Origin: a virus
Direction: 5' to 3' (one strand)
Length of the DNA: 22,097 nt
IMG/VR virus record: IMGVR_UViG_3300009034_001231
Location: 1 to 22,097 of that record
Positions 2,747 through 14,757 of this stretch are shown here, piece by piece. The notes under the pieces were generated by a model that saw only the letters and a program-made list of their open reading frames with translations, did no database searches and was not told the DNA's origin. Numbering within the stretch: position 1 is the first letter of the stretch; each line of letters starts with the position of its first letter. The position numbers and the translations under genes were made by a program.

Positions 2747-2897
2747 AACGGTTAAGACTGACGTTTTTGCGTTTGAAAATCAGCGTTCACGGGGTCAAAA
2801 ACCGCGAAAAAATTTAGCGAATTTGGTGAAAGGGTATCGTAGGCCGTATCTACTTAAATCGCTAACAAAACCGTTAGCAAAAAGTGGACATTTATAA
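2739..2897 (+). CDS. Small basic hypothetical protein
   Basis: This is a 52-residue ORF from ATG 2739, which overlaps the end of the zinc-ribbon gene by 8 bases, to TAA 2895-2897, just before the terminase-like gene at 2904. It is Lys/Arg rich with no motif I recognise. The same frame is open further upstream to GTG/ATG codons near 2628, but that would overlap the zinc-ribbon gene by over 100 bases. A 6-bp inverted repeat (GCTAAC 2861-2866, GTTAGC 2873-2878) lies in its last codons. Tight packing is the main support, and it may be non-coding spacer. Confidence 0.4.
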   Translation: MFETVKTDVFAFENQRSRGQKPRKNLANLVKGYRRPYLLKSLTKPLAKSGHL

Positions 2898-2903
2898 GAA
2901 ATT

Positions 2904-3347
2904 ATGACTGATGAGCAAATAACTGAGAAACCTAACGAAAATAGTCAACCGTCTGCCGAACAAACCGATAGAGACGCCGCAGGTCGTTTTATTGAAGGAA
3001 ATAAATTAGGCAACAGGTTTGAACCTGGCGAGTCTGGCAATCCCAAAGGCCCACCCAAACGCAAGACGAATCTTTGGGTTTGGCTATGCAAATATATGGA
3101 TATGACTGATGCTGAGCTTGAGAAGCTGGACGGTACTGAACTAACCCAAGCGAGACAGTACGCCTTGAACCTTGCAAAGAATATGAAAAAGGGTAGAGGG
3201 CCAGAGTCAGAACGATTTGCACGGCACCTCTTTGACCGTGAAGAAGGTAAGGTTGTGGAGCACATTATAATCGGAAACGAGGACGTTTTATCTGATGATG
3301 AGTGCGATGATATAAGAGAAGAATTGCTCAAAAATAATGCTGACTAA
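2904..3347 (+). CDS. DUF5681-type protein, probable small terminase subunit or terminase partner
   Basis: A 147-residue protein. Residues ~26-54 hold a GRFIEGNKLGNRFEPGESGN stretch continuing into PKGPPKRK, the Gly/Asn/Pro-rich basic motif of the DUF5681 family, which often lies directly upstream of phage large terminases. The rest is charged and helical, ending in an acidic tail (DVLSDDECDD, residues ~128-137). The large terminase ATG at 3337 lies inside its last codons (11-base overlap), which implies translational coupling. In such pairs the small protein recognises the packaging site and recruits the large subunit. DUF5681 is from memory; the small-terminase role rests on position. The ribosome site before ATG 2904 is weak. 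Confidence 0.7.
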   Translation: MTDEQITEKPNENSQPSAEQTDRDAAGRFIEGNKLGNRFEPGESGNPKGPPKRKTNLWVWLCKYMDMTDAELEKLDGTELTQARQYALNLAKNMKKGRGPESERFARHLFDREEGKVVEHIIIGNEDVLSDDECDDIREELLKNNAD

Positions 3348-5858: not shown

Positions 5859-6146
5859 CTATGGATTACAGACCTCGCACGGCCTTCTGCCTGAGTTTAT
5901 CGCTTCTTCTCTCGATTTGAAGCCAGCAAGGTTTTTCGACTTTATTCTCTGAGCGTATCTACAGTTTGGTTGGTGAAAAACCTCACTATTAACCGAAGCG
6001 ATATAGGCGTACTCTGCTACATCCTCTCGGCTTATTTGGACTTCAGGTGTGGTTTTCGCCGGCGGCCAGAGCAAATGAGCAGCTATCACTACCAAAGCTG
6101 CTACTCCGACACAAATGGCTATGAATTGGATGTCTTTACGGGTCAT
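5859..6146 (-). CDS. Membrane-anchored Ada-like zinc-binding protein B
   Basis: A 95-residue protein. One N-terminal hydrophobic segment (about residues 8-27) is followed by a linker and a compact C-terminal domain. That domain has H58, C62 and the closing C90-x-x-C93 with an intervening SREEAINSG, the pattern of the Ada metal-binding-like domains in small bacterial proteins. In Ada the four-Cys site binds zinc and DNA phosphates, but membrane-tethered relatives have no settled role. The start ATG (6146) lies inside the end of the upstream reverse-strand gene, so the cassette is translationally coupled. Protein A at 6516-6866 has the same plan. A surface or superinfection role is speculation. 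Confidence 0.8.
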   Translation of the reverse strand: MTRKDIQFIAICVGVAALVVIAAHLLWPPAKTTPEVQISREDVAEYAYIASVNSEVFHQPNCRYAQRIKSKNLAGFKSREEAINSGRRPCEVCNP

Positions 6147-6516
6147 TTAGCTTTCCGCTTCTATGCAATTCTTCAATGCTTTTGTCAAGATTTGGCCTGA
6201 GTATAAACTCGTTGTACGACTTCATACCCATATCAAAGAGGCCAGCTAAAAGAAAAAGCCAAGCGAAAATCGGGAAAAAGTATTTTCTAACATTGCGCCT
6301 TACAGTGGACACGGCCAACGCGATGAGGCCAAGGATAATGAAGTATATAATTGGTTCGAGTAGAATGACTCCGACCAGCCCGCCAAAGGTGTATATATTT
6401 GGATTCCTAACCTCAAAACAATTAGCGATGATTGTTGCGAGGACACCGACGACCAGAAACACGATATACTTCCGGCTCTTTTTGGGTGTTTTCTGCGATG
6501 TGTTTTCTTCGTGCAT
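6136..6516 (-). CDS. Small integral membrane protein
   Basis: A 126-residue protein with a charged N-terminus (KKSRK) and three hydrophobic stretches, roughly residues 17-32, 43-70 and 80-98, consistent with three or four membrane spans. No family recognised. Its ATG (6516-6514) overlaps the TAA of the upstream Ada-like gene in a TAATG junction, and its own end overlaps the start of the downstream Ada-like gene, so all three are one operon. Being sandwiched between two tethered zinc domains suggests a joint membrane complex. Confidence 0.78.
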   Translation of the reverse strand: MHEENTSQKTPKKSRKYIVFLVVGVLATIIANCFEVRNPNIYTFGGLVGVILLEPIIYFIILGLIALAVSTVRRNVRKYFFPIFAWLFLLAGLFDMGMKSYNEFILRPNLDKSIEELHRSGKLNDP

Positions 6517-6866
6517 TATAGTTTTCCTAAAGTTGGGCTACCCGATTTATCTGTCTCACATACCTTACAAGGATTATAGCCCTCTCTTGTGGCTTCTTCT
6601 CTGCTTAGAAAAACGACCATATCACCTGGAATTATTTGTTTGGCGCAATTAGAGCCTAATATGTGGGCGACCTTAGTTTTCTTAACCCCAGCATATATAT
6701 CATCTATCCAACAATAGCTTGGTGCGGGGTTCTCGTCGTAGAAACTATCCATCTTTGCATCGTTGGCGTTTTCGTTGATGTCCCAGAGAAACGAACCAAG
6801 ACAAACAAACGCCAAGAAAGCAAGTCCGACCGCTAATTTATTTGTCCACTCTTGGTATTTGCTCAT
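6516..6866 (-). CDS. Membrane-anchored Ada-like zinc-binding protein A
   Basis: A 116-residue protein from ATG 6866. The frame extends upstream to 6992, but that part crosses two opposed promoters and is not protein-like. It has one membrane segment at about 11-28, an acidic linker, then H68, C74 and C100-x-x-C103 with FLSREEATREGYNPCKVC, parallel to protein B. It is the first gene of the reverse cassette. A consensus -10 (6881-6876) ends nine bases before the ATG, so its mRNA would be leaderless or nearly so. Two paralogous tethered zinc domains in one cassette suggest duplication and divergence. Confidence 0.78.
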   Translation of the reverse strand: MSKYQEWTNKLAVGLAFLAFVCLGSFLWDINENANDAKMDSFYDENPAPSYCWIDDIYAGVKKTKVAHILGSNCAKQIIPGDMVVFLSREEATREGYNPCKVCETDKSGSPTLGKL

Positions 6867-6875
6867 TCCGAAAAT

Positions 6876-6904
6876 ATTATAGCATTTCAGCCCCAAATAA
6901 CCAA
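6876..6904 (-). promoter_or_regulatory. Sigma70-like promoter for the reverse cassette (leaderless)
   Basis: On the reverse strand, TTGGTT (6904-6899) and a perfect TATAAT (6881-6876) are separated by 17 bases. Transcription would start within about two bases of ATG 6866, giving a leaderless or near-leaderless message; no good Shine-Dalgarno precedes that ATG. Confidence 0.55.
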
Positions 6905-6938
6905 GCAAAAAAAACTTTATTTCTTGGCTATTATTTTG

Positions 6939-6966
6939 TTGACAGACTGGCAGGATAACCGATAAT
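6939..6966 (+). promoter_or_regulatory. Strong sigma70-like promoter for leader II / gene 7104
   Basis: TTGACA (6939-6944), 16-base spacer, GATAAT (6961-6966). It is divergent from the reverse-cassette promoter, with about 34 bases between the two -35 boxes. The predicted start falls near 6973, at the copy of the downstream gene's start codon. Confidence 0.7.
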
Positions 6967-6972
6967 GGTAAG

Positions 6973-7088
6973 TATGGAACACAGAGCATCAAATCAGTTT
7001 AACAAATCCAAATTAACGGGTGGGATAACTCTGTCGGTAACGCTGAGTGCGCCGCTCTGTGGCGTCATTAAATCCCGCCCACTTTTTT
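6973..7088 (+). ncRNA. Structured leader RNA II with duplicated gene start and terminator
   Basis: Predicted RNA from the 6939 promoter to the T-run at 7083-7088. It begins at or beside ATGGAACACAGAG (6974-6986), an exact 13-base copy of the start of the gene at 7104. Segment A, CACAGAGC (6980-6987), is complementary over 8 bp to A' GCTCTGTG (7054-7061). The terminator stem B/B' (7018-7026 with 7072-7080) interleaves with A/A', giving order A-B-A'-B'. A' also sits in the loop of a CGCC/GGCG hairpin and can pair with the same CACAGAG inside the real gene start (7110-7116). The pairings are seen in sequence; a switch is inference. Confidence 0.55.
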
Positions 7089-7116
7089 ACAAGGAGATTT
7101 GTAATGGAACACAGAG
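6974..7116 (+). repeat. 13-bp direct repeat of a gene start (6974-6986 and 7104-7116)
   Basis: ATGGAACACAGAG occurs at 6974-6986 and again at 7104-7116, where it is the start of the Tat-leader gene, 130 bp apart. The two copies flank the leader II terminator. The upstream copy opens a different reading frame (MEHRAS...) that runs through the terminator and past the true start to 7159. Confidence 0.9.
7018..7088 (+). terminator. Intrinsic terminator with long loop, leader II
   Basis: GGGTGGGAT (7018-7026) pairs with ATCCCGCCC (7072-7080): nine pairs, one G-U. It is followed two bases later by six Ts (7083-7088). The loop is 45 bases and contains smaller hairpins. It lies directly upstream of AAGGAG (7091-7096) and the gene at 7104, so readthrough would be needed for expression from the upstream promoter. 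Confidence 0.55.
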
Positions 7117-7883
7117 AAACCAAACAACCAGAACAAGAGCGCGTGTCCAGCCAGGTTGAGAAGCCGAAGGACAAAGAACAGAGAACGGAGCGGAGAACAT
7201 TTCTTAGGGGAGCAGGCGTAGCAACAGCGGGTTTATGCGCCCCTGGTTTGCCGAAGCTCGCAGCAGCCAAGACAAAAGAGCCTAAAGAGCCTGACAAAAG
7301 CCTCAACGAAGAAATTGCGTTGCTCGAACCTGAAGAAAAAGCAGCCTTGACAACTTTTCTGAAAGGGCTTTGGGAAGTTGACCGGATGCTAAGCCCCAGT
7401 ATGGTTCATAATTTTCTGCAAATCACTAAATTAAGTGTGGTAGTACAGAAAGCAAAAGAGAAACGCGAAAAGGCCAGGCAAGAGGAACGCCGACACCGGG
7501 ACAGCCTGACGGGGCAAGCCAAAGTGGATTATGTTTTGGAGAAATTGAGAGAGGATATTGGCCTATATTATCGAGCGAGTTTTCAGCGTGAGATATTGGA
7601 GCTTATAAGGGATGATAAGCCCATTCCTCCAGATGCAGATGAGCATTACGCCTACAGAGCTAAAGCGGTGAATGAGCAATTTGAAGGTTGCAGCAAGAGT
7701 TTCAGGCGAAAGGTTATTAACCAGTATCTTACCAAAGTCTTGCCAGAAATGGAGGCTAAACAACGAGAAGAAGATGCTGACCAGGAGGCTTATGACAACT
7801 TATTGAACTATCTCGGCAACAACAAGACAACCGAGGAAGTTGTTGCCCTAACAAAGCAACTCAAGCAAGCTGATGCAGCTTAA
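7104..7883 (+). CDS. Helical protein with Tat-like signal sequence, function unknown
   Basis: A 259-residue protein from ATG 7104 with AAGGAG at 7091-7096; an in-frame upstream start at 7047 lies inside the terminator region. After a 29-residue polar N-terminus comes RRTFLRGAGVATAGL (from residue 30), an S/T-R-R-x-F-L-K-type twin-arginine motif with a weakly hydrophobic h-region, then a possible cleavage region near KLAAAKT (51-57). The rest is charged and helical with coiled-coil-like stretches (residues ~135-155 and near the C-terminus). A Tat leader on a phage-type gene is unusual and suggests export of a folded product, or a captured host gene. The cysteine at 45 is not in a proper lipobox. 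It is preceded by leader RNA II, so expression is probably controlled by termination. Confidence 0.8.
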   Translation: MEHRETKQPEQERVSSQVEKPKDKEQRTERRTFLRGAGVATAGLCAPGLPKLAAAKTKEPKEPDKSLNEEIALLEPEEKAALTTFLKGLWEVDRMLSPSMVHNFLQITKLSVVVQKAKEKREKARQEERRHRDSLTGQAKVDYVLEKLREDIGLYYRASFQREILELIRDDKPIPPDADEHYAYRAKAVNEQFEGCSKSFRRKVINQYLTKVLPEMEAKQREEDADQEAYDNLLNYLGNNKTTEEVVALTKQLKQADAA

Positions 7884-9715: not shown

Positions 9716-10635
9716 CAACGAATAATACAGATAATCAGGGATGGGTCAGACTTTACAGAAAATCACTGGACAGTAGGGTTTGGCATAATCCCCATTTATG
9801 GCAGTTGTGGTGCTACTGTCTGCTCAGAGCGAATCATAAGCCCTGCTGGGCTTCCGTCAAAACAGGACGAGGGCAAACAGAAGTCTATTTAGAGCCAGGC
9901 CAGTTTATTTTCGGAAGGTTCTCAACAGCCAAAGACCTAAAGGCGAAGCCCGATGCAACGTATAAACGATTGTTGAAATTAAAAACACTCGGAAATATTA
10001 CCACCCAAAACAGGACGCATTTTACGGTCGTAACGCTCTGTAATTGGGATTTATACCAAAACGCTCAGGCTGATATTACCACCCAAGTACCACCCAAGTA
10101 CCACCCAAGTAACACAGACAAGAATGATAAGAATGATAAGAAGATAAATAAGTATAGTCAAAACTCTAACGAGTTCCGACTTGCCTCTCTTTTATTTGAC
10201 GAAATCAGGAAGCGTAAATCAGACTTCAAAGAGCCAAACCTACAACAATGGAGTGTTCATATTGACAGAGCGATTCGCATTGATAGTCGTAAGCCCGACC
10301 GGATTGAAGCTGTTATCCGATGGTGCCAGCAGGATGCGCCGAGGGGTGAGCGGGGTTTCGGATGGCAGGACAATATCCTCTCGACCGCCAAGCTCCGCGA
10401 GAAATTCGATAAGTTAGAGCTTGCGATGCAGGCTTCTCAAAAACAAAGGCAGCCCCGTGTGGTGAAATTCGAGGACGTTGGGCCAAGTGTGGAGTTTCTA
10501 AAGAACCAGCTTGATGGTTTGCTGCTGGTTCCTGAGCAAAAGAGAACGCCGAAGGACAGGGCTGAAATAAAGCGATTACAGGCGCGTTGTGAAAGAGCGA
10601 AAAATGATAGAGCAAATGCAGATAAGGCCGGATGA
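9712..10635 (+). CDS. Replication initiator/helicase-loader-type protein (lambda O / DnaD-like)
   Basis: A 307-residue protein from ATG 9712, with AAAGGA just upstream. The N-terminal domain (residues ~8-115) opens with GWVRLYRKSLDSRVWHNPHL and contains a GQFIFGRF...AKPDATYKRLLKLKTLGNI winged-helix segment, the plan of phage replisome organisers that bind origin iterons. A low-complexity linker (residues ~123-150) is encoded by the iteron repeats themselves, as in lambda O. The C-terminal half is charged and helical and could contact the helicase. The next gene is the DnaB helicase, with overlapping ends (10604), so the pair forms a replication module. Family placement is by plan and context, not by a decisive motif. 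Confidence 0.78.
   Translation: MTTNNTDNQGWVRLYRKSLDSRVWHNPHLWQLWCYCLLRANHKPCWASVKTGRGQTEVYLEPGQFIFGRFSTAKDLKAKPDATYKRLLKLKTLGNITTQNRTHFTVVTLCNWDLYQNAQADITTQVPPKYHPSNTDKNDKNDKKINKYSQNSNEFRLASLLFDEIRKRKSDFKEPNLQQWSVHIDRAIRIDSRKPDRIEAVIRWCQQDAPRGERGFGWQDNILSTAKLREKFDKLELAMQASQKQRQPRVVKFEDVGPSVEFLKNQLDGLLLVPEQKRTPKDRAEIKRLQARCERAKNDRANADKAG
10000..10160 (+). other. Candidate replication origin with iterons inside the initiator gene
   Basis: Three perfect tandem copies of ACCACCCAAGT occupy 10078-10110, preceded by ATATT. A partial fourth copy (ATTACCACCCAA) is at 9997-10008. Immediately downstream is an AT-rich A-strand tract with two AGAATGATA repeats (near 10120-10137) and AAGATAAATAAG. The 11-bp period is not a multiple of three, so each copy encodes different residues and selection appears to act on the DNA. 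Iterons plus an AT-rich tract inside the initiator gene reproduce the lambda-type origin layout. Confidence 0.7.
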
Positions 10636-11944
10636 TATTTTTTCGCGTGAAGCCGAGGCTGGTTGTATCGGTAGTCTGATTATGGTCGGCAAAACCGAGC
10701 CAGGCCGAATCGGAGAGATAATGGGCATACTTGACGTTGACGACTTTCACTTGCCCGAACACAAGGCGATGTACGGTGCTATTTGTGATATTTACATAAA
10801 AACCTCTACGCTTGACCCAGTAGTCTTGCGGGAAAAATTGAAGCAGGGAAAGGAGTTAGAAAGCGTTGGCGGCGTTGATGCTTACATAATCAAAGTCGTG
10901 CAAAGTGTTACTTCCGCAGCGAATCTTGACTATTTCGTTGATATTGTAAGGCGTAAAGCAAAGAACCGGCAGGTGGTTGAAGTCGGTCAAACAATTTACG
11001 ATTTGACGCTCAACTCCGACCAGCCGGACCAAAAGATAGAGAAAATCCAAGAGCTTTCATTGAGCTTAACGCCGATTGAGAACAAGCCGGACGTTTACAA
11101 AACAGAGAATGTTACGCAGGAAGCCTTAGAAGATTTATTGGAAAAGAAATCCGGCATTAGTACGGGCTTTGAGAAAATGGATTGGCACTTGGGGGGCTTA
11201 CGGGGTGGGGATTTTGTTGTAGTTGCGGCGCGTCCGTCTATGGGTAAAACGGCCTGGGCACTCGATGTAGCCTTGAATGTTGCCAGGTCTGGCAAAGCTG
11301 TGGTTATTTACAGCCTTGAGATGACCCGAACGCAATTAACTCAGCGAATGATTTGCAATATAGCAAGGGTTGATTCGCATAAAGTGAGGCAACAACGATA
11401 TACCCCCGAAGATGTAAACGAGCTTGGACTGGCCGCTACAACACTGAGCAATTACAAAATCCTGATAATGGACTTCTCACAATTAACACCTGAAACTTTC
11501 AGGGCAAGTCTCAAGACCGTAAAGCATAGATTTAGAGTGGACTGTGTGATAGTCGATTATCTTCAACTTATGCAGACAAAGGGTAGGAATGAAAACCGGC
11601 AGCAGGAAATTACTACGATAAGTCGAAACCTGAAAGCGGCTGCAAAGGGAGAGGAATTGCCGGTAATTGTCTTATCGCAACTGAATCGGGAAGTCGAACA
11701 TAGATTGAGTCATAAGCCACAACTTAGCGATTTGCGTGAAAGCGGTAGTATCGAGCAGGATGCCGATGTTGTGATTTTGCTACACCGGCCAGACTGGTAT
11801 CACAAGGGCGAGGAAGGGTATGTGAAAACCAACAATGGAGTTTTTCAAATTGCTAAAAGTCGCAACGGCCCAACGGGTGAGTTGGAATTACAGTTTAGTG
11901 AAAAATTCGTTTCGTTTGGAAATATATCAATGGGGGAAGAATAA
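10604..11944 (+). CDS. dnaB: Replicative DNA helicase, DnaB family
   Basis: A 446-residue protein from ATG 10604. The N-terminal helical domain (about 10-130: SREAEAGCIGSLI, DDFHLPEHKAMYGAI) is followed by a linker and a RecA-fold core. In the core, Walker A is ARPSMGKT (209-216), SLEMTRTQLTQRM follows, Walker B is VIVDYLQLM (315-323), then LSQLNREVEHR (357-367), DLRESGSIEQDAD (376-388) and KSRNGPTG (418-425). All signatures of a working hexameric replicative helicase are present and the length is normal. The element therefore drives its own theta-type replication with the initiator encoded immediately upstream. The start overlaps the initiator's last codons, and the stop overlaps the next ATG. 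Confidence 0.96.
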   Translation: MIEQMQIRPDDIFSREAEAGCIGSLIMVGKTEPGRIGEIMGILDVDDFHLPEHKAMYGAICDIYIKTSTLDPVVLREKLKQGKELESVGGVDAYIIKVVQSVTSAANLDYFVDIVRRKAKNRQVVEVGQTIYDLTLNSDQPDQKIEKIQELSLSLTPIENKPDVYKTENVTQEALEDLLEKKSGISTGFEKMDWHLGGLRGGDFVVVAARPSMGKTAWALDVALNVARSGKAVVIYSLEMTRTQLTQRMICNIARVDSHKVRQQRYTPEDVNELGLAATTLSNYKILIMDFSQLTPETFRASLKTVKHRFRVDCVIVDYLQLMQTKGRNENRQQEITTISRNLKAAAKGEELPVIVLSQLNREVEHRLSHKPQLSDLRESGSIEQDADVVILLHRPDWYHKGEEGYVKTNNGVFQIAKSRNGPTGELELQFSEKFVSFGNISMGEE

Positions 11945-13070: not shown

Positions 13071-13307
13071 ATGGTAGAAATACTCGGCACAATCGCAACG
13101 ATGTTAGCTGTACTTGGTGTTGTCTTTAACAACCACAAACTAATTGCTTGTTTTTATCTCTGGCTTTTGAGTAATGCGATTACGGCAGGGATTCATCTGG
13201 ACGCAGGGATATACAGCTTGCTCATAAGAGATTTGATATTCTTCGGGCTGGCTATCGAAGGCATATATCGTTGGAGAAAAAAACCTTTTGAAAAACAGGG
13301 AACATAA
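13071..13307 (+). CDS. Small membrane protein, PnuC-fragment-like
   Basis: A 78-residue protein with three hydrophobic segments (about 3-20, 25-42, 50-66) and a basic C-terminus (RWRKKP). NNHKLIACFYLWLLSNAI followed by a RDLIFFGLAIEGIYRW segment resembles the small PnuC-like (nicotinamide riboside transporter fragment) membrane proteins seen in many phages and islands. It is too short to be a full transporter, so its role is unknown. It starts one base after the upstream stop. Confidence 0.7.
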   Translation: MVEILGTIATMLAVLGVVFNNHKLIACFYLWLLSNAITAGIHLDAGIYSLLIRDLIFFGLAIEGIYRWRKKPFEKQGT

Positions 13308-13418: not shown

Positions 13419-13446
13419 TTGACGTAGCTTGAGCCGATGATATAAT
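13419..13446 (+). promoter_or_regulatory. Strong sigma70-like promoter for leader I / integrase
   Basis: TTGACG (13419-13424), 16-base spacer, perfect TATAAT (13441-13446). Predicted start near 13453. It is the same spacer length as the promoters of leaders II and III. Confidence 0.75.
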
Positions 13447-13452
13447 TGTAGA

Positions 13453-13553
13453 TACTATGAGACTCAGGATAAGTCAGAAAATATTAAGCCCATCGAAGTC
13501 CACTTTTGGCCGTTTTCGGTCAGTCCTGGGTCTCAACTTTGATGGGCTTTTTT
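13453..13553 (+). ncRNA. Structured leader RNA I upstream of integrase
   Basis: A roughly 100-base RNA from the promoter to the T-run. Segment A, TGAGACTCAGGA (13458-13469), pairs with A' TCCTGGGTCTCA (13524-13535): 12 pairs, one G-U. Segment B, AAGCCCATCGAAGT (13486-13499), pairs with B' ACTTTGATGGGCTT (13536-13549): 14 pairs, one G-U. The order is A-B-A'-B' with A' abutting B', so the stems interleave as a pseudoknot or as rival folds. A small hairpin GGCCG-TTTT-CGGTC (13508-13521) lies between B and A'. The first bases of A repeat the integrase start (ATGAGACT at 13457 and 13573), so A' could also pair with the true start. Confidence 0.7.
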
Positions 13554-13564
13554 ATAGAAAGTGA
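13457..13564 (+). CDS. Possible 35-residue leader peptide ending in the integrase ribosome site
   Basis: The ATG copy at 13457 reads MRLRISQKILSPSKSTFGRF and on for 35 codons through the whole terminator to TGA 13562-13564, inside the GTGAGGTGAA ribosome-site region of the integrase. Its first three residues (MRL) equal those of the integrase. No Shine-Dalgarno precedes it, but the predicted RNA begins only about four bases upstream, so leaderless initiation is possible. A translating ribosome would melt the terminator. Confidence 0.35.
   Translation: MRLRISQKILSPSKSTFGRFRSVLGLNFDGLFYRK
13486..13553 (+). terminator. Intrinsic terminator with long loop, leader I
   Basis: A 14-bp stem (13486-13499 with 13536-13549, one G-U), a 36-base loop with an internal hairpin, and six Ts ending at 13553. 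It lies 20 bases before the integrase ATG, between promoter and gene. Confidence 0.75.
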
Positions 13565-13572
13565 GGTGAACA

Positions 13573-14757
13573 ATGAGACTGTTCAAACCAACATACAAAA
13601 ATAAGAAGAACGGCAAGACAAAACAAGTTAGTAAATGGTGGGTAGAACTCCGCCACAACGAAACTGTCCGGCGTTTCGCAGGAGAACGCGACAAGGCCGC
13701 GACCGAGGCTATCGGTCGTAACATCGAGAAACTGATAGGTCTTTATCACGCAGGCGAACCACCGAGTACGCAGTTGGTACTCTGGCTCAATCAGGCTCCG
13801 GTGAAACTCCGAGAGCAGTTAGTAAGAATAGGATTACTGGACTCCGGCTGGGTGACGGCCAGCAAGCCGATATTAGAACACCTTAAAGATTTTGAGAAAT
13901 CACTTGCCCTGCGGGGCAAAGAGAAGCACGCCCGACAGACCGCTTCGATGTTAAGGAAAATAATAGATGGCTGCGGATTCAAACACTGGACTGACGTTAA
14001 GGCTAATGACATCGAGGTATATATCGCAGACCGCCGCAGGAACGGATTGTCCAAGATGACAGCGTCTTACTATGCTAAGGCTTTTCGGCGGTTCGGTCTT
14101 TGGATGGTAAAAGAGAAAAGGGCAAGCGAAGCACCTATGATACATTATGATAAACCACCGAAAAACTACGGACGTGCCTTTGAGCTTGACGAATTTCAAA
14201 GGTTGCTCGACGCTACGTTTTCGGGGCCGGTGCGTGAAGGTTTGACTGGCCGTGTCAGAGGTATTTGTTATATTCTTGCGACCGAAACAGGATTGCGGCG
14301 TGGGGAATTGCGGAGCTTGACACCAGCATCATTCGATTTCAAAAGCAATACGGTATTCGTCAGTGGCGAGCATACAAAGAATGGCGAGGATGCCATACAG
14401 GAGTTTTCAATAAAGACGGCGGGATTACTAAAAGAATTTATTGCTAACAAAATGCCGAATGTTCAGTTGTTTCCTTTACCAAACTATACATCGAGGATGA
14501 TAAAAGCAGACTGCAAGGCTGCTGGTATCGAAACAGACAACAACAATGGTAAAAAATGCTTTCATAGTTTACGGCACTCGTGCGGCACATTTTTGGCTGC
14601 CAAAGGCACCCATCCTAAGATAATACAAGACGTGATGCGTCATAAGTCGATAGAAATTTCAATGATTCGATACTGTCACATTCTTAAAGGCCAGAGAAGG
14701 TCGGCTATCGAAAGCTTGCCGGACTTCACTAAGCGCAGAGCGACAGGGACGAAGTGA
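13573..14757 (+). CDS. int: Tyrosine recombinase integrase
   Basis: A 394-residue protein from ATG 13573 with GAGGTGA upstream. An N-terminal arm/zinc-free region (1-95) is followed by a core-binding SAM-like domain (~96-190) and a catalytic domain. The catalytic set is complete: R242 in ETGLRRGEL, H331-x-x-R334 in HSLRHSCGTF, H357 in MRHKSIEIS and the nucleophile Y367 in IRYCHI. It integrates and excises the element at an att site, presumably close by. The N-terminal KWWVELRHNETVRRFAGERD pattern resembles Planctomycetota-type integrases from memory. It is transcribed from its own promoter through leader I. Confidence 0.95.
   Translation: MRLFKPTYKNKKNGKTKQVSKWWVELRHNETVRRFAGERDKAATEAIGRNIEKLIGLYHAGEPPSTQLVLWLNQAPVKLREQLVRIGLLDSGWVTASKPILEHLKDFEKSLALRGKEKHARQTASMLRKIIDGCGFKHWTDVKANDIEVYIADRRRNGLSKMTASYYAKAFRRFGLWMVKEKRASEAPMIHYDKPPKNYGRAFELDEFQRLLDATFSGPVREGLTGRVRGICYILATETGLRRGELRSLTPASFDFKSNTVFVSGEHTKNGEDAIQEFSIKTAGLLKEFIANKMPNVQLFPLPNYTSRMIKADCKAAGIETDNNNGKKCFHSLRHSCGTFLAAKGTHPKIIQDVMRHKSIEISMIRYCHILKGQRRSAIESLPDFTKRRATGTK

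Follow-up and report, generated by a model that had tools for sequence, protein, structure and literature searches.

The integrase gene of the phage described here is preceded by a strong predicted promoter and then, directly before the gene, by a predicted intrinsic terminator. This arrangement raises the question of what decides whether RNA polymerase stops in the leader or continues into the gene. In the window (the whole 22,097-nucleotide stretch of viral DNA that was analysed), a first-pass annotation had proposed that this leader holds two interleaved stems of 12 and 14 bp with A' abutting B' and a T-run, all of which was confirmed to the nucleotide. Specifically, A (13458–13469, TGAGACTCAGGA) and A' (13524–13535, TCCTGGGTCTCA) are paired at 12 of 12 positions, and B (13486–13499, AAGCCCATCGAAGT) and B' (13536–13549, ACTTTGATGGGCTT) at 14 of 14, each with one G·U pair included. 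A' adjoins B' directly, and six T residues occupy 13548–13553. The surrounding 136 nucleotides (13440–13575) have a minimum free energy of −37.4 kcal/mol, with z = −2.74 relative to shuffled sequences. The features of this leader, called element 1, are as follows.

13419–13446, + strand: sigma70-type promoter, TTGACG-16-TATAAT (11/12 matches; consensus prediction)
~13453, + strand: predicted transcription start, inferred from the −10 spacing
13457–13564, + strand: leader ORF 1, 35 codons (MRLRISQKILSPSKSTFGRFRSVLGLNFDGLFYRK), open through both stems and the T-run
13458–13469, + strand: stem A, which begins inside the leader start codon
13486–13499, + strand: stem B, the 5' arm of the predicted terminator
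13507–13522, + strand: small hairpin in the loop between B and A' (fold prediction)
13524–13535, + strand: stem A', adjoining B'
13536–13553, + strand: B' (13536–13549) and T-run (13548–13553), predicted intrinsic terminator
13573–14757, + strand: tyrosine integrase (Pfam PF00589, E = 3e-18)

The first-pass account of the stems stood, but it overlooked the ATG at 13457–13459, the leader ORF that this codon opens, and another copy of the architecture at 6939–7104. The ATG lies about 4 nucleotides from the predicted 5' end of the transcript, and the ORF stops 8 nucleotides upstream of the integrase ATG. Judging from sequence and predicted folds, we propose a translation-gated attenuator of transcription whose leader ORF is near-leaderless, a reading to which we give a rough probability of 0.52. 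Under this proposal, the window integrase would be the gene controlled by element 1, and translation would probably decide whether the phage genes downstream are transcribed.

Copies in related phages and planctomycete elements

The window belongs to an IMG/VR virus record of 22,098 bases. Its terminase is about 60–87% identical to terminases of other uncultured phages, and relatives of the window integrase occur in genomes labelled Phycisphaerae, Planctomycetia and Planctomycetota, so planctomycetes are the likely hosts. Because integrase scans of viral_contigs brought no new relatives (none with the single sequence, and just two already known with an alignment), relatives were reached through the terminase and through planctomycete genomes. 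Two phages of the same terminase group, L005 and L013, encode related integrases with about 41% and 33% identity, respectively. Between an excisionase-like helix-turn-helix gene and the integrase leader of the window lies a small ORF (13071–13307) whose match to the NMN transporter (PnuC) family (Pfam PF04973, E = 5e-9) is to the beginning of that family; the ORF is far shorter than the family's members.

The L013 and L005 integrase leaders, which were chosen by protein homology and not by complementarity, bear on a check set beforehand, namely whether homologues carry compensatory changes. Both keep the interleaved stems in different sequence. In L013, A (GCTATGCCACAGAA) pairs with A' (TTTTGTGGCATAGC) and B (AAATGAGCCGCCAAG) with B' (CTTGGCGGCTCATTT), followed by T6; in L005, GTTGTATG (A) pairs with CATACAGC and AAAGGCGGCCGGGGC (B) with GCCCCGGCCGTTTTT. 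Readings of the region as attP or as an operator were dropped because the orthologous leaders keep RNA pairing and not sequence.

A structural descriptor was run over both strands of the loci retrieved in this analysis, to which all counts refer, and 16 clear copies plus one ambiguous copy (L154) were found in related phages and planctomycete elements. Members were picked by stems and promoter, except for the L100 variant, which alone was spotted via its start codon. The promoters, transcription starts and terminators of all copies are predictions, the first two made by consensus. The copies, the orthologous leaders among them, keep the architecture, which supports the earlier proposal of a regulatory leader and shows it to be conserved. 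The device is not specific to the integrase, since the same-strand genes that directly follow every copy include not only integrase genes but also exonuclease, recombination and replication genes or operons, among others. For example, L022/L107 has one copy before a RecE/YqaJ-type exonuclease gene and another before a small ORF that is closely followed by a replication-type gene. Further copies are found in L081, in L082/L083 and L084/L094, in L092, in L020, in L013 (a second one) and in the L100 variant, and chromosomal copies in L037, L153 and L157.

The second copy in the window, element 2, heads a different gene.

6939–6966, + strand: promoter, TTGACA-16-GATAAT (consensus prediction)
6973–6988, + strand: stem A, which pairs with A' (7053–7069)
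6974–7159, + strand: leader ORF 2, 61 codons, ATG about 1 nucleotide from the predicted start
7018–7026, + strand: stem B, which pairs with B' (7072–7080), then T6
7053–7080, + strand: A' (7053–7069) and B' (7072–7080)
7104–7883, + strand: first gene 3' of element 2, no PHROG match

Leader ORF 2 crosses the stems and extends into the downstream gene, which is read in a different frame; that gene lies on the same strand as, and upstream of, a DnaB-type helicase gene (10589–11944). Elements 1 and 2 have no sequence in common, and an own-genome sequence search with the element 1 leader matched only itself and did not pick up the structural copy at 6939–7104. The window, L107 and L013 each carry two copies without common sequence, and therefore a sequence-specific factor is not needed. 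Leader 6974–7159 of the window, the L020 5500 region and the minus-strand L037 leader resemble one another in three parts, L1 (ATCAAATC-like), the L2 hairpin and the leader peptide, and possibly form a sequence subfamily. Two small minus-strand ORFs of the window (5859–6146 and 6516–6992) have a common C-terminal motif with Cys pairs and SREEA that, judged by eye, resembles Ada-type zinc-binding domains.

A promoter-anchored score for the interleaved arrangement gives 71 for the window integrase leader. Nine distinct real promoter-downstream segments score at least 60, compared with 0 of 57,400 dinucleotide-shuffled segments, and 12 real segments score at least 47, compared with 1.55 expected. 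Some members were found by this score, which rewards complementarity, so complementarity is not fully independent evidence; the integrase orthologues, the start codon and the reading frame are independent of it.

The element is absent from some of the loci covered. Among the chromosomal integrase loci, just four carry it (L037, L153, L157 and the ambiguous L154), and the integrase leader of the L020 phage (L194) is without it. No copy was found in the distant phages G404 and G406–G409, and no clear member in planctomycete chromosome and prophage controls of modest size. Six further phages (lambda, HK022, P1312, ctEqG8, P23-45 and D3), also a modest control, gave no match of at least 43 with a promoter of at least 9/12, and two unrelated matches of at least 55 when a promoter of 8/12 was allowed. 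BLASTN with the element 1 leader in phages and plasmids returned chance matches only. Likewise, no Rfam covariance model (int-alpA and riboswitches included) matched the leader at its gathering score, and the best result at a permissive threshold was a below-threshold, chance-level Phe_leader.

Two copies depart from the common form. In the L100 variant (minus strand, near 765 of the reverse complement), A' and B' are separated by 15 nucleotides, A is a perfect 11-bp stem and the leader ORF has 78 codons. In the integrase-proximal L154 copy (2833–3010), the stems are present and A/A' is very strong (−34.5 kcal/mol), the ATG overlaps the predicted −10 box, and the ORF ends at the T-run.

Pairing partners and the leader reading frame

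Arms of the 16 copies pair far better with their own partners than with swapped ones, at −20.2 versus −6.5 kcal/mol on average for A and −20.7 versus −7.4 kcal/mol for B. The own partner is the best partner in 16/16, with stem sequences that are wholly different between copies, and the check on compensatory changes thus did not refute the first-pass reading. The gap between A' and B' is at most 2 nucleotides in 14 of 16 copies, and 9 and 15 nucleotides in the remaining two. L1 spans at least 11 nucleotides in every copy, counting the core A stem only, and its composition (40% A and 11% G) differs from that of whole leaders (26% and 23%). B/B' and the T-run form a predicted intrinsic terminator before the gene in all listed copies, and the predicted terminated RNA would run from A to B' over 81–135 nucleotides with both ends paired.

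The start codon falls +5 to +12 after the −10 box in 14/14 counted copies (12 ATG and 2 GTG, with GTG used in three copies of the family overall), leaving a predicted 5' UTR of 0–5 nucleotides. By comparison, an ATG occupies this interval in 103 of 979 other promoters (P = 3e-10 against 12 of 14 members). Moreover, the start codon lies −3 to +6 nucleotides from the 5' end of A in 16/16 copies. Read from this codon, 13/14 copies have no stop before the end of B', and the leader frame contains a single stop in total, whereas the other two frames contain 39 and 18 (Fisher P = 4e-6); the exception is L013, whose leader ORF stops inside A', short of the B' end. The frame is likewise open in two further chromosomal copies, L153 and L157. 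The ORF usually stops at or overlapping the start of the next gene, and the L005 ORF shares its frame with the integrase. With the stop placed past the T-run, a terminated transcript would be a message that has no stop codon, L013 excepted. The leader peptides contain no run of regulatory-amino-acid codons and no cysteine cluster, and their sequences are not conserved among the integrase leaders of related phages.

Readthrough or termination

We propose the following order of events. A strong promoter would yield a transcript that begins at, or almost at, the leader ORF start codon, and the ORF would then be translated. Arm A is made up of this start codon and the codons after it, the stretch that falls under the footprint of an initiating 70S ribosome. 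Because A' is made last, directly before B', A:A' could close only when RNA polymerase is at the T-run, and the start codon would be open to a ribosome until then. This order fits a timer that leaves the start codon accessible until polymerase reaches the decision point. Ribosome loading and A:A' pairing would be mutually exclusive: a loaded, translating ribosome would block A:A' and, by its passage over B, also B:B', giving polymerase readthrough, and would then translate up to the start of the next gene. If no ribosome is loaded, B:B' would terminate transcription, and A:A' would seal the start codon of a short RNA that would otherwise act as a message without a stop codon. One candidate for the signal sensed is the supply of ribosomes that can initiate on leaderless messages; such initiation uses mainly 70S ribosomes and is sensitive to initiator tRNA and initiation factors (PMC9031893). 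Counting against the proposal are the L013 ORF that ends before B' is complete, the L154 ATG placed over its predicted −10 box, the lack of a regulatory codon run in the peptides, and the L194 integrase leader, which has no such element.

The folding calculations give two states. As long as B' is hidden in the polymerase, 12/13 copies have A:A' in their minimum-energy fold. Once the full leader is folded, B:B' takes its place in 11/13, and when A is masked as a ribosome would mask it, B:B' is formed in 13/13. In nested folding, the energies of these states lie within about 1–15 kcal/mol of each other. The first-pass annotation had anticipated two states and a comparison of their free energies, and both folds indeed appear in the expected order, with B:B' favoured once the leader is complete. 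However, its suggestion that they exclude each other was not supported. A/A' shares no bases with B or B', so the nested calculation overstates exclusion, and L1 leaves room for a pseudoknot. Our folding tools are nested only, and the loop lengths permit an H-type pseudoknot, in which A:A' and B:B' may both be present, with A' stacked end to end on B'.

In the proposed order of events, A:A' would act as a lock on the start codon. The pairing could also work in the other direction, by hindering B:B' and causing readthrough without a ribosome. An RNA-only kinetic switch of this kind, along the lines of the first-pass proposal, in which A:A' forms first and encloses B, and removal of A:A' restores termination, would make the leader ORF secondary, or itself the agent that removes A:A'. 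The early success of A:A' before B' emerges and the closeness of the two energies are compatible with such a switch, and an A' that abuts B' would maximise hindrance. We nevertheless consider it unlikely, because A has no nucleotides in common with B, the length of L1 would let both helices coexist, B:B' wins the full nested fold in most copies, and the start codon and open frame are left unexplained.

It is less probable still that the phage makes a small, stable RNA here that works in trans as a pseudoknot whose 5' and 3' ends are protected, with the downstream gene reached by leaky termination. Strong promoters and a short predicted RNA that is paired at both ends, from A to B', are what such a molecule would be expected to have. 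However, no sequence is conserved between copies, even within one phage, whereas the reading frame is conserved and each copy sits directly before a same-strand gene.

If the ribosome-gated attenuator is correct, its topology is unlike the textbook scheme of 1:2, 2:3 and 3:4 pairings. These leaders might then represent an attenuator class, which we put forward tentatively and at somewhat less than even odds, whose leaderless leader ORF contributes its start codon as the 5' arm of a stem that interleaves with the terminator (1:3 and 2:4). Lock and terminator would close together, as a factor-free and sequence-independent gate on integrase and early operons in Planctomycetota phages. Because the sequence changes freely between copies, the device would rely only on general machinery, the ribosome and the polymerase. 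Such a device could explain how these phages, without a known antitermination protein, control integrase and early operons. The element may also be more widespread than the 17 copies, because unconserved sequence escapes sequence-based RNA searches.

Relation to known leaders

Leader-peptide attenuators such as trp and ilvB1 of Mycobacterium tuberculosis comprise a promoter, a short leader ORF and an intrinsic terminator before the gene, as predicted for the phage leader, and the position of the ribosome is the likely switch in both cases. The phage leader may work like a classical attenuator. In the ilvB1 type, however, one strand of the terminator also serves the antiterminator (arms 1:2, 2:3 and 3:4; PMC13236596), whereas the phage leader pairs 1:3 and 2:4 with no shared strand, and for this reason we do not file it under that type. 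In addition, its start codon is itself in arm 1, it has no regulatory codon run, and its ORF passes through the terminator.

Mycobacterial leaderless short-ORF attenuators (Canestrari et al. 2020, as described in PMC9031893 and PMC4633059) also place an ORF start at or near the 5' end and before operon genes; they carry runs of cysteine codons, and their target is translation of the following gene. The phage leader instead has a predicted intrinsic terminator and interleaved stems and no cysteine cluster. Transcriptional H-type pseudoknot riboswitches (preQ1 and others, PMC11625349) resemble it in setting two interleaved helices beside an intrinsic terminator. The phage leader differs from these in having no conserved aptamer and no Rfam match, in the free sequence of its helices, and in the reading frame through the structure.

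Put-type RNAs of phage HK022 are conserved, are recognised by RNA polymerase and act in cis on several terminators. A related possibility is that the leader RNA is recognised by an antitermination factor of the phage or its host, so that a modified polymerase passes B:B' and later terminators. The copies do head integrase, recombination and replication genes or operons, the kind of place in which antitermination is used by lambdoid phages. We regard this as highly improbable, because two copies in the same phage lack common sequence, such a factor was not identified, and the leader ORF is left unexplained; HK022 itself has no copy with a promoter match of at least 9/12.

In hok, the 5' translation start region is bound by a distal strand, and transcription sets the folding order. 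The phage leader would be similar in both respects, but it is not a stable message with an antisense partner, and it sits before a gene and ends in a terminator. That the leader ORF encodes a functional small protein, with its message silenced by 5' fold-back as in type I toxins and the downstream gene incidental, would suit a start codon locked by a distal strand and the hydrophobic stretches of several peptides (L020 and L037 among them), but this is the least probable of the explanations considered and a very improbable one, since the peptides vary among related integrase leaders, the stop codon lies at the start of the next gene, and no antisense RNA gene was seen.

Our search of the literature and Rfam found no equivalent, and no described system that combines 1:3/2:4 pairing with a start codon in arm 1. 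A separate observation concerns L194 (1760–2010), where the integrase lies behind a strong promoter and a near-leaderless ORF that resembles a small helix-turn-helix protein, which suggests that leaderless starts are common in these phages.
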